A DNA stretch of 64,000 nucleotides from Pandoraea communis (lineage in GTDB: Bacteria > Pseudomonadota > Gammaproteobacteria > Burkholderiales > Burkholderiaceae). The stretch spans positions 1 to 64,000 of the forward strand of contig NZ_CABPSJ010000001.1 of the NCBI RefSeq assembly GCF_902459745.1, read 5' to 3'. Within the stretch, counting starts at the first letter, position 1, and every line of letters starts with the position of its first letter. The translations under genes and the position numbers were made by a program. The notes below the pieces were generated by a model. That model did not search any database, was not told the DNA's origin, and saw only the letters and a list, made by a program, of their open reading frames with translations. Shown here piece by piece: positions 53,577 to 61,326 of this stretch.

Positions 53577-54406
53577 TTAAGCGGCTAATGCAAATACCTC
53601 AGCCGGGGTTTTCATGTTCAGCGCCTGATGGGGCCGTCGATGGTTGTAGAACTGAATCCAGTCGGCGATCACACGGCTGGCGTGCTGCAGCGTTTCGAAG
53701 CGGTGACGATGTACGCCTTGCTCCTTGAGCGTGCGAATCACGCGCTCGACCAAACCGTTCTGTTGCGGGCAGTGTGGCGTGACGAACTCCTGACGCAGTC
53801 CGTAACCGCGCACCAGGGCCGTGTAGGCACGACTAGTGAAGACCAACCCGTTGTCGCTTCTCAGCAGGAACGGCTTCGGCACCCGTCCGAGCGTACCAAA
53901 GCGAGCAATCAACGCATGCTCCAACGCGCTCGAAGCCGTGCTGGCGCGGCCACTGCGTGACAGATGCCAGCCCAGTAGCTCGCGCGTATGACAGTCGATC
54001 ACCCGTGCCAGTGTCGCCCTGCCGTCCCGGCGTCCCGCCCAGACCACACGCGACACAAATCTGTTGACCAACGTTCATTGGGCATCGTCGCCACCGATGG
54101 CAACGCCTGAATCCTCGGTCTGAAGCCGATTGGCCGCTTGCGAACCTGCCAGCCCATCAACTGGAACACCCGCTGCACGGTGTTCTTGTTGAACCCCAAC
54201 AGGTACGCGACCGTCCGATAGCCAAACGACGGCGACTCCTCGATCAACGCCTTGATCAGCGCGGCGAACTTCGCATCGACCTTGCGCGCCGATTTCACGG
54301 GCTTGTAGTACACGGTGCGACGCGGTACACCGAACCCGCGGCACAGCTTGGCAATCGAGACGGTGATGCCGTCGGCTTGAAGTCCCTGGCGGATCGTCTC
54401 GATCAC
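53577..54406 (-). pseudogene. IS3-family transposase orfB, frameshifted
   Basis: The orfB product begins IETIRQGLQADGITVSIAKL with the HTH_21-type LCRGFGVPRRTVYYKPV. It continues to MPNERWSTDLCRVW and then goes out of frame near 54040-54046. The rve integrase core resumes in another frame: ATLARVIDCHTRELLGWHLS, LLRSDNGLVFTSRAY (second Asp) and TPHCPQQNGLVERVIRTLKE (Glu), closing QFYNHRRPHQALN. An inserted base explains the break. Confidence 0.88.
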
Positions 54407-54725
54407 TTCTCGTCCTCGCCCAGCAGGGACTGCAATTTTTTTCTGGCACGCAACTCCAGCATCGCCTCGCCGTAGGCCTCCTGGAGGTCCTTGATCTGGT
54501 GTTCATACTGTTCCCGCACGTCTTGTGGGTTGGCTCTCAAGGCATTCTCCATGCCCCGCCTGCCGTCATCGACCCACGGCTCGACCTCCGAAGGGTGACA
54601 GATCGTACTGGCGGCTCGCCTCCGCCACTGTGGTCTTGCCCTGAATGATGTCCAGCACCAGGGCGCTCTTGCGCTTCGCTGTCCACCTTTTGATGTCGTC
54701 CTCCATCACCTTGCTCATCGTCTTT
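54407..54725 (-). pseudogene. IS3-family transposase orfA, frameshifted
   Basis: Starts MSKVMEDDIKRWTAKRKSAL and proceeds to VAEASRQYDLSP. An extra base in a C-run (54593-54595) then breaks the frame. The remainder, SEVEPWVDDGRRGMENALRA up to LRARKKLQSLLGEDEK, is in the following frame. The gene is an HTH protein that pairs with orfB for transposition. Its end overlaps the orfB start, as is usual for programmed frameshifting in IS3. Confidence 0.82.
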
Positions 54726-56446: not shown

Positions 56447-56749
56447 GTGGCAGTCTATGTCGATAATGCTCGAATTAGGTGGCGAGGACGACAATGGTGC
56501 CATCTGGTAGCCGACTCGCTTGACGAACTGCATTTTTTTGCCACTGCTCTCGGGTTGAAACGCGGCTGGTTTCAAGCCGAGGCGTCACTCCCGCACTACG
56601 ATGTGACGACGGAAGTTCGGGACCTGGCGATAAGTCGGGGAGCTCAAGTGGCAGACCGACGGACGTTGGTTATGCGTGGTCGAAAATTGAAACTCGAATT
56701 ACAAGCACTTCGGGCCAGTCAGACAAGCCAACTTAAGCTGTTTGACTGA
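56447..56749 (+). CDS. DUF4031 domain protein
   Basis: A 100-residue protein matching the DUF4031 pattern: VYVDNARIRWRGRQWCHLVA at the start, then DELHFFATALGLKRGWFQAE, PHYDVTTEVRDLAISRGAQ and a basic tail. The family is small, found in phages and actinobacteria, and has no known function; the conserved Asp, Arg, Trp and His residues suggest nucleotide or nucleic-acid handling. A GTG start with AGGGGGCGAG just upstream is used. It lies 70 bp before the thymidylate-synthase-like gene on the same strand, so a shared transcript is likely. Confidence 0.8.
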   Translation: MAVYVDNARIRWRGRQWCHLVADSLDELHFFATALGLKRGWFQAEASLPHYDVTTEVRDLAISRGAQVADRRTLVMRGRKLKLELQALRASQTSQLKLFD

Positions 56750-56819
56750 ATCCGCGTAACTCCGAAGCGGAGATGCGCGCGCACGTCGATGAACCAGCGT
56801 CGACGATAAGAACAATGCT

Positions 56820-57869
56820 ATGTATCTCAGTGCCGATACGCTAGATGACCTACTCATCAGGGTCTACAAGCGACTGCTGCGACGACGGGGCGCAGCAGAA
56901 ATTAATCCAAGCAAAGGTCAGGCAACCGAACTCAACGGTGTGCTCCTCCATATCCGGCAACCTCGTGCTCGGCTAAGTCGCACGGAGCGAAAAGGGACGT
57001 TTTTCAGCTGCTTGGGGGAGTTCCTTTGGTATCTATCAGGCACTGATGAGGTCGCTTTCATTGAGTACTATATTCGTGGCTACGACAAATTCTCTGACGA
57101 CGGCAAGACCATTTTTGGTGCATATGGTCCGAGGTTGTTCGGGCAGAACGGTACGAATCAAGTAGAGAATGTCATCACGACGCTAAAGGCACGCCCGGAT
57201 TCTCGGCGCGCAGTCATACAACTCTTTCATGGAGAAGACTTGGCCGCAGATATTGCAGCGAGGCGAAAGGACATTCCTTGCACCTGCACGCTACAGTTTT
57301 CAATTCGAAGCGGCCGACTTCATCTCTTGGTCATGATGCGTTCGAACGACGCATACATGGGGCTACCACATGATGTGTTCGCGTTCACAATGCTTCAAGA
57401 AATCGTCGCTAGGTCGCTGAAGGTGGAGTTGGGCTCGTATAAGCACGCGGTCGGCAGTCTTCATCTTTACGCGACCAATACGCGAGACGCAGAGGCCTAC
57501 ATCGAAGAAGGCGTGCAGGCGCGAGTGGAGATGCCACCAATGCCATACGGAGACCCCACCCCGTCGATCCGTAAGCTACTCAAAGCAGAGCAAAGCATCA
57601 GGGCCGGAAGATTTCCAGCTCTCGGTGCGTTAGATCCATACTGGGCGGACCTCGCTCGCCTGCTTCAAGTCTTTCGTATTTCTAAAAGGCGACCGACGCT
57701 TGAGAACCGAAAGCGGGTCGTCAGGATTAAGAAAGAGATGCATTCTGACATCTACGAGACGTACATCCTAAAGCGCGAGCTTCGAATGGCTCGACACGCC
57801 GAATCGCTAGAGCCACTTCTTTTTGATAAGGCTGAACTGGACGCTCAGCAAGCGCCACCTTCTGTTTGA
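56820..57869 (+). CDS. Thymidylate-synthase-family (d)NMP hydroxymethylase-like enzyme
   Basis: A 349-residue member of the thymidylate synthase fold. Family motifs in order: FLWYLSGTDEVAFI, PDSRRAVIQLF (phosphate-binding Arg pair), DIPCTCTLQF with the nucleophilic Cys, MMRSNDAYMGLPHDVFAF and GSLHLYATN. The residue that reads O4/N4 of the pyrimidine is Asn in ThyA (LPFNIAS) but Asp here (LPHDVFA), as in T4 dCMP hydroxymethylase and CMP-hydroxymethylase MilA. It may therefore add a one-carbon group to (d)CMP rather than make dTMP. The C-terminal 80 residues are an extra helical region. It precedes a pyrophosphorylase-like gene. Confidence 0.85.
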   Translation: MYLSADTLDDLLIRVYKRLLRRRGAAEINPSKGQATELNGVLLHIRQPRARLSRTERKGTFFSCLGEFLWYLSGTDEVAFIEYYIRGYDKFSDDGKTIFGAYGPRLFGQNGTNQVENVITTLKARPDSRRAVIQLFHGEDLAADIAARRKDIPCTCTLQFSIRSGRLHLLVMMRSNDAYMGLPHDVFAFTMLQEIVARSLKVELGSYKHAVGSLHLYATNTRDAEAYIEEGVQARVEMPPMPYGDPTPSIRKLLKAEQSIRAGRFPALGALDPYWADLARLLQVFRISKRRPTLENRKRVVRIKKEMHSDIYETYILKRELRMARHAESLEPLLFDKAELDAQQAPPSV

Positions 57870-57909
57870 ATTTTTCGTTGCAGTAGCCATATCTACATCA
57901 TCGGCAGAC

Positions 57910-58833
57910 ATGAAGAATCCGCAACTGACCAGACACCTCGAAGAAAATTTAAGGGAATATGGAGCTAAAGTGCGACAGCTCCCCGGACTAACAAGTCGAG
58001 CGGCCATTTCCGCATTGGCCGCACAGATGGTAGAAAGCATCCATCGGGTCAAATATGTGTCAGCAATTGGTAAGCGACCGATTTCGCCGAGACGCCTGGA
58101 TCCAAAGGACGTTGAGATGTTCGATCCACTACGCGCCGCGATAGTCCATATGCGCGAGGGGAACGTCGACGAAGCTTACTGGCTCGTGTATCTTTTTGTG
58201 CACTGCGGAAAACATGCGAGCAAAGGCTACGCACTGCTCCGCATGGTTTACGGCGCTTACACCGATGATTTCGTGTGGACTTGGGAACGGTTTTCGAGTT
58301 CGCCGGTAGATTTCTATATTTGGTTCAACCAGCACATCGATAACATCAAACGGGAGCGCAAGAATTTCCCGTTCGGAAATCATCGAAAGTATGAAAGTCT
58401 AGAAGACCTAGCCAATGTCCTGAACAGCTACGTGGAGTGGGTAGGTCCCGGTCGCTCGCATGTTGCAATGCTTTCAGCAGCGCAGGAGGTGGTTGGTGAT
58501 GATCCTAAGGAGCTCTTTGACTATCTGTATAAGAGCATGGATGCTGTCCATCGATTCGGACGAACTGGAAAGTTTGACTACTTGACCATGTTGGGCAAGA
58601 TCGGACTCGCCAACATCGCCCCACCTTCGGCATACATGATTCACGCTACCGGGCCAGTTCGAGGTGCACGCCTACTTTTTGGCGGGAGCGTCGAGGCCGG
58701 AATCTCAAAATCCGAACTTGATTCACTAAGCATAGAGTTAGACCAAGTATTAAATGTTGGCATGCAAGTAATTGAAGACTCCCTCTGCAATTGGCAGAAA
58801 AGTCCTGAGAAGTTCGTCCCATTTCGTGGCTAG
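57910..58833 (+). CDS. Alpha-glutamyl/putrescinyl-thymine pyrophosphorylase clade 3-like protein
   Basis: A 307-residue protein I assign to the aGPT-Pplase3 family, a DNA-glycosylase-derived group predicted from comparative genomics to attach amine groups to hydroxymethyl-pyrimidines in DNA. Family-like parts are PGLTSRAAISALAAQMVESI, DPKDVEMFDPLRAAIVHMRE, the DEAYWLVYLFVHCGKHASKG segment with the G-K-H motif, and WTWERFSSSPVDFYIWF. The assignment rests on recalled motifs, not a search. An in-frame TTG at 57823 overlaps the previous gene; the ATG at 57910 is preferred. It follows the TS-like gene by 40 bp and ends 2 bp from the convergent antitoxin gene. Confidence 0.68.
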   Translation: MKNPQLTRHLEENLREYGAKVRQLPGLTSRAAISALAAQMVESIHRVKYVSAIGKRPISPRRLDPKDVEMFDPLRAAIVHMREGNVDEAYWLVYLFVHCGKHASKGYALLRMVYGAYTDDFVWTWERFSSSPVDFYIWFNQHIDNIKRERKNFPFGNHRKYESLEDLANVLNSYVEWVGPGRSHVAMLSAAQEVVGDDPKELFDYLYKSMDAVHRFGRTGKFDYLTMLGKIGLANIAPPSAYMIHATGPVRGARLLFGGSVEAGISKSELDSLSIELDQVLNVGMQVIEDSLCNWQKSPEKFVPFRG

Positions 58834-58835
58834 TT

Positions 58836-59933
58836 CTACGCCCATTTGTATCGAACTTTTAGCTTATTAAAGTGCTCACGTCGCACTAATCCTTGATGCT
58901 GAAGCTGCCCCACAACAATACCATTGGATATACCAGCATCTCGTGCAAGGCGCACAATTCCGCGGACACTCTTCGCAGCCTCAGGCATTCGCGCCTGCAA
59001 ATGCTTGGGCACCAAAAAATCTGAGGCGAACAGGTTTGCCTCCTCCTCCTTGGGAGATGTCGGCCCGCCTGTTGAAATCTCAAGAATTAGCGCCTTTTCA
59101 TCGTAGTGAAGTACGAGATGCCCTGCCTCGTGGAAAAACGAAAACCAGAACTGATCGTCACTCAAATAGCGAGCCGACAATAGAAGGACTGCCTTGTTTG
59201 GGGTCGCAAAGAACGTCGCTCCGCTCGCCCGACACCCCGTAGGTGCTTTGGCAATCACGACGGCAACGCCAACCTCCGCACAGAGCTTCTGTAGCAGGGG
59301 GACGAATTCGGCCGGATTCGAAAGCCGCGTGAGCGCTCGGACTTTGGTGAGTTGCTTTTTGAACGACTCAGGATTCCAATCATTGCAAACCATTGCATCG
59401 GCGACTACCTCACCACGTCGGAGCCACGCGATAGTTGACGGTGCATTCTCTGGATGCGCTTCCGTAGTCCGAAACACGGCAGCTTCTTTGTAATCTCCAT
59501 AGGTTCTCCGCCAAGCGGCAACGCTCGGAACACCGAAAAATTCGAGACACTTACGAATTTTTCCTGCCTTATCTACCGGCAAATCAATCCAACCAAACTC
59601 CACCATTTGTCGCAAGGGCAAAGCGCGCAACAAGTCAGCATACTGGGCATCATTGGCGTCCACATCCATGTCTAACCTAGCAGCTTGCTCGCGATACTGC
59701 CCCTCTCGCCGAAGCCAAAAATCTGCGGAAGCACCAATAGTCTTCGCAAGGCCATCGGCAATCGCGTCAGTAAGAAAGGCACGCCCCTGAAGCAGCTCCT
59801 GAAGCTCTCCCTTTGTTAGATTAATTGACAGAGCTAGAGTCTCAAGCGAAATGCCTTTTGACTCCATCAGGTCCGATACTGTTCGACCAGGAGGGATCGC
59901 CCATGCGGGAAGGAAATCGGCTTCAGCTCTCAT
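58836..59933 (-). CDS. Antitoxin with HTH and ImmA/IrrE metalloprotease domains
   Basis: A 365-residue protein. The N-terminal HigA-type XRE domain contains VSDLMESKGISLETLALSIN and LTKGELQELLQGRAFLTDAI. The C-terminal ImmA/IrrE-like peptidase has H-E-x-x-H in SFFHEAGHLVLHYDEK and a downstream Glu region PKEEEANLFASDFLVP. This arrangement is common in antitoxins paired with HigB-like toxins, where the HTH represses the operon. ATG 59933 lies inside the end of the toxin gene (11-bp overlap); a TTG at 59945 is also in frame. Convergent with the aGPT-like gene. Confidence 0.88.
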   Translation of the reverse strand: MRAEADFLPAWAIPPGRTVSDLMESKGISLETLALSINLTKGELQELLQGRAFLTDAIADGLAKTIGASADFWLRREGQYREQAARLDMDVDANDAQYADLLRALPLRQMVEFGWIDLPVDKAGKIRKCLEFFGVPSVAAWRRTYGDYKEAAVFRTTEAHPENAPSTIAWLRRGEVVADAMVCNDWNPESFKKQLTKVRALTRLSNPAEFVPLLQKLCAEVGVAVVIAKAPTGCRASGATFFATPNKAVLLLSARYLSDDQFWFSFFHEAGHLVLHYDEKALILEISTGGPTSPKEEEANLFASDFLVPKHLQARMPEAAKSVRGIVRLARDAGISNGIVVGQLQHQGLVRREHFNKLKVRYKWA

Positions 59934-60261
59934 CAGCACACCCAATGGAAAGAATTTTGAGGCGGGAAACCTGGCCCCAGTTTACTTGGCCATTCGCAAA
60001 TCGTGGCACGGGTCTATGGCCAATCGTAGTGACCACCACGTTGTTCTCGCCAATAGGTATGACCATTTGAACATCCGAATTTTGGTCGAATTTGGCGAGC
60101 CCCATGCGAACGAACTCGCTCGGTGAGCCGATCGCCCGAAGATCGGCCAGTCTCGCGCGCAAGGTTCTAGCAATCTCGTCCCCCAATTTACGCTTCGACG
60201 AGACAGGACTTTCGCATATCGTGCGAAGTTTCTCATCCTTGAAGGAAAGTTCTATCGACAT
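59923..60261 (-). CDS. HigB/RelE-like toxin
   Basis: A 112-residue RelE-superfamily toxin of the plasmid-maintenance (HigB) type, expected to cut mRNA at the ribosome. The family pattern is visible: SIELSFKDEKLRTICE, KRKLGDEIARTLRARLADL, IGENNVVVTTIGHRPVPRF and the closing QVNWGQVSRLKILSIG. It precedes and overlaps its HTH/ImmA-IrrE antitoxin, the usual toxin-first order of HigBA. The start was set at ATG 60261; upstream codons to 60279 are also open. Confidence 0.82.
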   Translation of the reverse strand: MSIELSFKDEKLRTICESPVSSKRKLGDEIARTLRARLADLRAIGSPSEFVRMGLAKFDQNSDVQMVIPIGENNVVVTTIGHRPVPRFANGQVNWGQVSRLKILSIGCADES

Positions 60262-60611
60262 GGACGCGAAGTCAAGCATACGTTCTGCTTCGCGACACCG
60301 CTCAGTACTCGCATATCAAGTGCATCGTGAAATTTTCAAAAAAGGCAAATATCCATTGCGGCATGCCTACGCTAGCATCTCTACGACGCGCGCCCCCATA
60401 TGAAATCAATGAATAAAATTCATTCTTTTACTAAGCAATAGATTTTAAACACCACACCTCTTTTTAAAAAATCAATCTTATATTATCGCCCCCGACTAGT
60501 CGAGCATCTTCGTGATTGTCGGTCGAAGCTATAGTTGAGTGATAAGAAAAGGCGAGAAAATCGTCTGCATCACCCATACAAACGTGCGCGGCGCTTACGC
60601 ATCTCGAATGA
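60262..60611. promoter_or_regulatory. AT-rich promoter region of the toxin-antitoxin operon
   Basis: About 350 bp, strongly AT-rich at 60400-60490. A perfect palindrome ATGAAT-AAA-ATTCAT at 60409-60423 is a candidate operator for the HTH antitoxin, about 150 bp upstream of the toxin start. No gene was recognised. The right edge joins the broken IS3 transposase. Confidence 0.4.
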
Positions 60612-61326
60612 TTACCTCCCCACCGCAGCTAGCGACTGGACCGGCCAGAGTTTCGCAGACACGCATGAGCCGTTTAGCGCGTAGCGCCGCTCAAACTCTA
60701 CAGGTGACATGTCGCCGGCGGAACCATGTCGGCGAATCGTGTTGTAGAACATCTCAATGTAATCGAATACGTCCGTGGCAGCAGCAGCCCTGTTCGGGTA
60801 AATGCGCCGCTTGATTCGCTCCTTCTTCAATGCGCTGAAGAAGCTTTCGGCAACGGCGTTATCGTGGCAATTGCCACGGCGACTCATGCTCGGCACCATA
60901 TGGTGCGCCCTCAGGAATGGCTGCCAGTCATCGCTGGTGAACTGGCTGCCCTGATCCGGATGCGCCATCACGCCGGGTCTCGGTTTGCGTTTCCATACTG
61001 CGGCGAGCAAAGCCCGCAATACCAGATCGCTGGTCATCGTTGAGCGCGTGGCCCAGCCGACGATCTGACGCGAGTACAGATCCATGACTGCTGCCAGACA
61101 CAGCCAGCCTTCGTAGGTTCGGATGTACGTGATGTCGGTGACCCGAGCCTTGTTCGGCGCGTCGGGGGGCGAACTCCCGATTCAAGACATTGGCCACCAC
61201 GCCGACCGGACCGCCACGATAACGAGGCTTGCTACCGTAGCCGACCTCCGCACGCAGACCTTCGCCTTTCATCAGTCGATGCACGCGGTGGCGGCGGAAA
61301 AGATATCGGCCCCGAAAGCCTGCCAC
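60612..61326 (-). pseudogene. IS3-family transposase orfB, truncated and frameshifted
   Basis: Minus-strand remnant. It starts abruptly with RHRVHRLMKGEGLRAEVGYG and SKPRYRGGPVGVVANVLNRE, then shifts frame in a G-run (C-run on the coding strand) at 61164-61169. The catalytic core follows intact in the next frame: MDLYSRQIVGWATRSTMTSD, MAHPDQGSQFTSDDW and SRRGNCHDNAVAESFFSALK, ending EMFYNTIRRHGSAG. The first half of orfB and all of orfA are absent, and no inverted repeats were found. It is a different IS3 lineage from the copy at 53549. Confidence 0.88.

Follow-up and report, generated by a model that had tools for sequence, protein, structure and literature searches.

Several described systems bear on a locus that we examined in Pandoraea communis (contig NZ_CABPSJ010000001.1, positions 1 to 64,000; this stretch of 64,000 nucleotides is called the window, and all coordinates refer to it), where genes for a thymidylate synthase (TS)-like enzyme and an aGPT-Pplase3 protein converge on genes for a HigB-fold protein and a HigA-ImmA protein. 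In the anti-phage system PD-Lambda-2 (Vassallo et al. 2022, PMC9519451), a HigB-like first gene is followed by a HigA-peptidase second gene, an order that our locus appears to share; component B is toxic alone and is rescued by A, and a third component, C, is required for defence. In phage SN1 (M6-like, PMC9476957), enzymes of the aGPT-Pplase family accompany a pyrimidine hydroxymethylase, a combination that we also predict for our locus. DefensePredictor (PMC13092281) predicted an aGPT-Pplase system to be defensive (legend of Fig. 6F), which may or may not be the unit described here, and also validated a TS domain and a 5-hydroxymethyluracil kinase domain in defence. Finally, the Brig1 and Brig3 glycosylases (PMC11078745 and the preprint PMC13160076) act in bacterial defence against modified cytosine, a direction that this module may share.

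PD-Lambda-2 and a predicted aGPT-Pplase defence system are already known, but the locus differs from each of these precedents. Unlike PD-Lambda-2, it has convergent partner genes for a predicted hydroxymethylase and aGPT-Pplase3. In contrast to the thymidine cassettes of phages SN1 and Tonitrus (PMC9476957, PMC11955845), which include a kinase, its aGPT-Pplase belongs to clade 3 rather than clade 1 or 2, its predicted hydroxymethylase is of the cytosine type, no kinase was recognised among families recurring in at least three loci, and it is bacterial with a toxin-antitoxin-like partner. The main text of PMC13092281 does not contain the terms “ImmA” or “DUF4031”, and in the portion of that paper used here we saw no mention of specificity for deoxycytidine monophosphate (dCMP) or of a degenerate HigB. 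In the literature that we searched, we found no description of a near-fixed, four-gene convergent unit, of its dCMP-type active site or of a decayed HigB.

A conserved unit of two convergent operons

The TS-like gene of the window (56820..57869, + strand, ATG start, 349 amino acids; PF00303, 94.5 bits) is followed by the aGPT-Pplase3 gene (57910..58833, + strand, ATG start, 307 amino acids; PF18746, 315 bits), and both are preceded by a gene for a DUF4031 protein. An earlier note on this DNA had described these as three same-strand genes separated by gaps of 70 and 40 nucleotides, and this description holds: the three open reading frames (ORFs) are intact, and their Pfam matches all exceed the family cut-offs, including those to the DUF4031 and aGPT-Pplase3 families that the note had named. 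An alternative TTG start at 57823 would give an aGPT-Pplase3 protein of 336 amino acids that overlaps the TS-like gene. On the opposite strand, the gene for the HigB-fold protein (59923..60279, - strand) runs into the beginning of the HigA-ImmA gene (58836..59945, - strand), which encodes a helix-turn-helix (HTH) domain and an ImmA/IrrE (M78) metallopeptidase (PF06114, 44.5 bits) and matches the PADLOC model PD-Lambda-2_B (PDLC03982, 88.5 bits).

To describe how far this arrangement is conserved, we used a set of 104 loci (numbered with the prefix L), made up of 80 genome loci, 22 loci on viral contigs from IMG/VR, and two loci from a phylum sample (L083 and L084). For the genome loci we took the best 80 of 121 relatives found for the window's aGPT-Pplase3, and linkage is thus measured on close kin. 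Two loci were omitted as repeats, namely the window itself (L001) and L002, which seems to coincide with L003, while some of the viral loci resemble mutual copies (L118/L119 and L123-L125). Also omitted was L085, an aGPT-Pplase3 gene without partners, and counting it would make the TS figure 101/105.

Within this set, aGPT-Pplase3 occurs with the TS-like gene in 101 of the 104 loci, a convergent HigA-ImmA gene is present in 103 and a HigB-fold gene in 98. Three loci lack a TS match (L033, L070, L076) and six a HigB-fold gene (L064, L074, L081, L116, L120, L125); apart from L033 and L064, each of these loci reaches a contig end. The stop codons of the HigA-ImmA and aGPT-Pplase3 genes lie between -20 and +26 nucleotides apart in 71/79 loci, and 2 nucleotides apart in the window. 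Tree distances of the four genes are correlated as well (Spearman 0.63-0.81 over 85 loci, against a maximum of 0.19 in 200 permutations), although shared host ancestry remains mixed into these values. The conserved unit is therefore a TS-like gene and an aGPT-Pplase3 gene facing a HigB-fold gene and a HigA-ImmA gene tail to tail, as two convergent operons.

For the two enzyme genes, the expectation that they work together is supported insofar as they form a near-obligate pair whose tree distances are correlated (Spearman 0.69; maximum of 200 permutations, 0.13). The earlier note had extended this expectation to DUF4031, and here the co-occurrence breaks down, with that gene present in only 28/104 loci. 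Carriers of the unit are assigned by record title to seven phyla (Pseudomonadota, Acidobacteriota, Bacteroidota, Chloroflexota, Planctomycetota, Actinomycetota, and Verrucomicrobiota). PF18746 is rare, occurring in 2/200 genomes of the family and 4/398 of the phylum (the window's own genome is included in both counts), and three of the four carriers in the phylum sample, again including the window's genome, have the full unit.

The two enzymes

A profile of 45 TS-like relatives matches MilA, a cytidine monophosphate (CMP) 5-hydroxymethylase, at 239 bits, while the best true TS reaches 100 bits. A separate ThyA is encoded in the window's genome (432 bits). The catalytic Cys, Glu, His, and Tyr of dCMP hydroxymethylases are all kept in the TS-like proteins (C154, E67, H215, and Y217, each in 45/45), and together with an Asp they are common to MilA and the T4 dCMP hydroxymethylase as presented in PMC5175136. 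According to that paper, the Asp marks enzymes that use cytosine, and a Ser and an Arg mark those that use deoxyribose, whereas MilA has Ala and Lys at the latter two positions. The TS-like proteins have D185 in 45/45, S175 in 45/45, and R129 in 44/45 sequences, so their sugar positions are those of the T4 enzyme and not those of MilA. The Asn of a uracil-type hydroxymethylase is replaced by Asp throughout. These residues lead us to predict that the TS-like enzyme is a dCMP 5-hydroxymethylase and not a producer of hydroxymethyl-deoxyuridine monophosphate (hydroxymethyl-dUMP). Because the active site is of the cytosine type, the predicted chemistry shifts from thymine, where the earlier note had placed it, to cytosine. 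Elsewhere, L179 (6083-7795) encodes a TS-domain protein of 570 amino acids that is clustered with a TIR-like protein (by reading).

The match of the second enzyme to PF18746 spans positions 2-279 of the 279 in the profile and is far above the cut-off (315 bits versus 25). The protein also matches ADDT (PF18724) above cut-off, at 229 bits, and an alignment of 56 aGPT-Pplase3 sequences contains 22 invariant columns.

The HigA-ImmA and HigB-fold proteins

The motif HExxH is present in 78/79 long HigA-ImmA relatives. The 97 HigA-ImmA proteins of the module form one clade (support 0.72) that excludes all 19 comparison proteins, which come from loci hand-picked for long open frames and all belong to one phylum. 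This clade is sister to four pairs whose HigB retains its motif.

The short partner protein encoded on the minus strand has a HigB fold but lacks the residues expected of a HigB toxin. Both the conserved His of HigB and its C-terminal [D/E/N/K][Y/T]H motif are absent from all module proteins (0/98 each), whereas they occur in 12/14 and 13/14 free-standing relatives. Two looser patterns show the same contrast (5/98 and 7/98 in the module versus 10/14 and 12/14 in free-standing proteins), and a His persists at the C-terminal column in 7/98 module proteins; all of these patterns were selected after viewing the sequences. The earlier note had mentioned toxins beside the cassette, and this was right insofar as the pair at 58836-60279 belongs to the unit, but one member of this pair has lost its toxin residues. 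The note had also treated a neighbouring HNH nuclease as a partner, and a relative of that gene was found in only 1/82 loci (L042, about 6.7 kb away, in a search started from the HNH gene). As the pair is present in 98 and 103 of 104 loci and the HNH gene is not, the toxin and nuclease half of the original proposal must be rethought around the HigB-fold and HigA-ImmA proteins.

PADLOC gave no match for the HigB-fold protein (the library was not checked for a PD-Lambda-2 A model), and among seven window proteins no PD-Lambda-2 model other than B was matched (nor was the library checked for a C model). In L087-L089, which have close PD-Lambda-2_B relatives, a different short upstream protein is present. 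Pairs of HigB and HigA-ImmA genes without the enzymes were seen, by reading, between hsdM-like and hsdS/hsdR-like genes in L146 and L148; in L140 they follow hsdM-like genes and precede an ATPase/helicase-like pair.

Proposed role and alternatives

We think it rather probable that this is a four-gene unit with a cytosine-directed hydroxymethylase that acts in defence, and the module is probably a mobile, anti-phage one. Its surroundings are consistent with this, as the earlier note had anticipated in placing the cassette in a defence setting. From 714 candidate flanking proteins we sampled 150, of which three were dropped for length, and compared the remaining 147 with PADLOC at E 1e-15. Matches included type I and II methylases, AbiEi, mad2, mad3, LmuB, DzbA, ZacA, ZacB, PDC-S34, and a DRT reverse transcriptase. 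Judging by the names of 25 of the 70 matched families, something like ten of the 147 proteins have such matches, while there were none among 122 control proteins encoded beside housekeeping repair-glycosylase genes, a control of small neighbourhoods that is not matched for island character.

In the mechanism that we envisage, the first operon (the TS-like gene, then aGPT-Pplase3, with an optional DUF4031 or possible uracil-glycosylase-like gene) would produce a modified cytosine. The TS-like enzyme would add a hydroxymethyl group at C5 of dCMP, and aGPT-Pplase3 would act on the hydroxymethylated base, most likely by amine substitution at the hydroxymethyl group and less likely by removal of the base. 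The second operon (the HigB-fold gene, then HigA-ImmA) would encode a control pair derived from a toxin-antitoxin system. We no longer expect mRNA cleavage by the HigB-fold protein, which may instead restrain the HTH-protease as PD-Lambda-2 A restrains B. Takeover by a phage would then disturb the nucleotide pool or the state of the modified DNA, freeing the protease and aborting the infection. The sequences themselves show the gene families, the linkage of the four genes and their convergent arrangement, the residues of the active site, the missing HigB residues, and the presence of defence genes in the flanks sampled. We infer the defence role, the dCMP product, and the action on DNA, while what triggers the system and which partner controls the other are guesses; the modification may serve as a self mark, feed a signal, or poison replicating DNA. 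As a detailed scheme, this is unlikely to be correct in all of its steps. We regard it as a possibility, rather than an expectation, that the module serves bacterial immunity by synthesising 5-hydroxymethyl-dCMP itself and elaborating this to a hypermodified cytosine within host DNA, under the watch of a toxin-antitoxin pair in which decay of the ribonuclease toxin has left a regulatory subunit.

Several results weigh against a cytosine-directed defence unit of four genes. Methylation and hydroxymethylation cannot be told apart here as the activity of the TS-like enzyme. Profile comparison of aGPT-Pplase3 with helix-hairpin-helix (HhH) glycosylases, from which we take the family to descend, found no similarity (30 proteins fetched by PF00730), and in the literature that we searched activity was reported for no aGPT-Pplase3. 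The HigA/HTH part of HigA-ImmA rests on matches below cut-off (TIGR02607, 29.6 bits against a cut-off of 47.7), and a shared operator between the two operons was not found in 91 loci (mean score 8.90 versus 8.75 for the null). An aGPT-Pplase3 relative (L085/L157, 1651-2559, 199 bits) has no TS, HigA-ImmA, or HigB-fold partner nearby. At E 1e-35, TS-like relatives occur in 5/398 genomes, namely the same three carriers of the unit and two with distant versions that lack it, and the HigA-ImmA profile matches 17/396 genomes at E 1e-70, of which three had aGPT-Pplase3. Taken from both sides, these occurrence counts indicate that the enzymes need the HigB-fold/HigA-ImmA pair, which for its part can do without them.

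One alternative, which we consider unlikely, is that the module is an effector that poisons bases. The enzymes, induced on infection, would load replicating DNA with hydroxymethylcytosine, which aGPT-Pplase3 or a glycosylase-like gene product would attack, with the HigA-ImmA/HigB-fold pair serving as sensor and repressor. Since the HigB residues are lost in loci that carry the enzymes, the enzymes may have taken over the toxic function, and a DNA glycosylase that excises 5-hydroxymethylcytosine confers phage defence according to preprint PMC13160076. Two accessory genes, named by reading of their motifs, are also consistent with such an effector: a glycosylase-like gene in 26/104 loci and a MazG-like gene in 21/104. 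One representative of each gave no Pfam match above cut-off and no PADLOC family. The product of the glycosylase-like gene, which is situated between TS and aGPT-Pplase3, shows a motif like that of uracil-DNA glycosylases, the superfamily to which the Brig-type enzymes belong, but kinship is unproven, since the alignment with uracil-DNA glycosylases has an E of 0.25 and the best match in the PDB (E 0.45) is an unrelated protein. Against poisoning, neither the window nor 78/104 loci contain this gene, aGPT-Pplase3 has no shown glycosylase activity, and the operator that would couple the two operons was not found. The MazG-like gene lies directly upstream of the HigB-fold gene in L053, L058, L059, L066, L126-L130, and others.

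The thymine pathway of the earlier note, in which hydroxymethyl-dUMP is made and incorporated and aGPT-Pplase3 then carries out the amination in DNA, as happens in phages with hypermodified thymine, now appears quite improbable. It would fit the name of the family, which refers to alpha-glutamyl/putrescinyl thymine, and a dCMP deaminase could still lead from hydroxymethyl-dCMP to hydroxymethyl-dUMP. In L178 (7506-9780), a distant TS-like relative adjoins genes resembling dCTP and dCMP deaminases (by reading). Nevertheless, the Asp at the base-specificity position of all 45 sequences and the CMP hydroxymethylase as closest solved relative argue against it. A kinase, which the phage cassettes do include, was not recognised among the families recurring in at least three loci, of which one representative each was read and no kinase profile was run.

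We give a similarly low probability to self-marking, in which the enzymes would shield the DNA of a mobile element from host restriction while the toxin-antitoxin-like pair stabilises the element. In its favour are the 22 loci on IMG/VR contigs, matches in eight of 72,556 plasmid records, and phage-type integrases among the sampled flank proteins (3/147). On the other hand, 50,697 phage records gave no match, the HigB-fold member lacks its toxin residues, and the flank families, as far as 25 of 98 show, are mostly of transport and housekeeping functions. A MilA-like role in secondary metabolism, supplying a precursor of a nucleoside antibiotic, is very improbable even though MilA is the nearest solved relative, as the residues behind the ribose preference of MilA are of the deoxy type here and no biosynthetic family was recognised, by reading, among those in at least three loci.

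If our preferred reading of a cytosine-directed defence unit is true, it joins phage-style base hypermodification, toxin-antitoxin defence of the PD-Lambda-2 type, and defence aimed at modified cytosine. On the bolder reading, with a hypermodified cytosine made in host DNA, bacteria would have turned a chemistry of DNA modification that is familiar chiefly from phages into a self-mark or a poison, and it would have spread as a unit across at least seven phyla. The decayed HigB beside a fixed enzyme pair offers a testable case of a toxin-antitoxin system rebuilt as a regulator. Should such loci hydroxymethylate cytosine in the DNA or the nucleotide pools of bacteria, liquid chromatography-mass spectrometry on a natural carrier could reveal it.

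Optional and neighbouring genes

The DUF4031 gene (56447..56749, + strand, GTG start, 100 amino acids; PF13223, 91.6 bits), proposed in the earlier note as a third part of the system, is better regarded as an optional accessory gene. Depending on the locus, it precedes TS, separates TS from aGPT-Pplase3, or lies downstream, and a confident model of the protein (predicted local distance difference test score 92) gave no clear fold match. The G+C content is 50-53% at 55-63 kb and 54-66% elsewhere in the window, and because of this lower value the stretch at 55-63 kb fits an island. A glmS-like gene (by reading) is found at most a few kb from the module in L003, L004, and L005; Tn7-like elements commonly insert at glmS. 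In the window, pieces of IS3-type transposase-like ORFs at 53577-54506 and 60612-61326 flank the HNH gene and the module (by reading). The DUF2971 protein encoded at 61436-62296 matches the PADLOC candidate PDC-S31 and may represent a further defence gene of the island.

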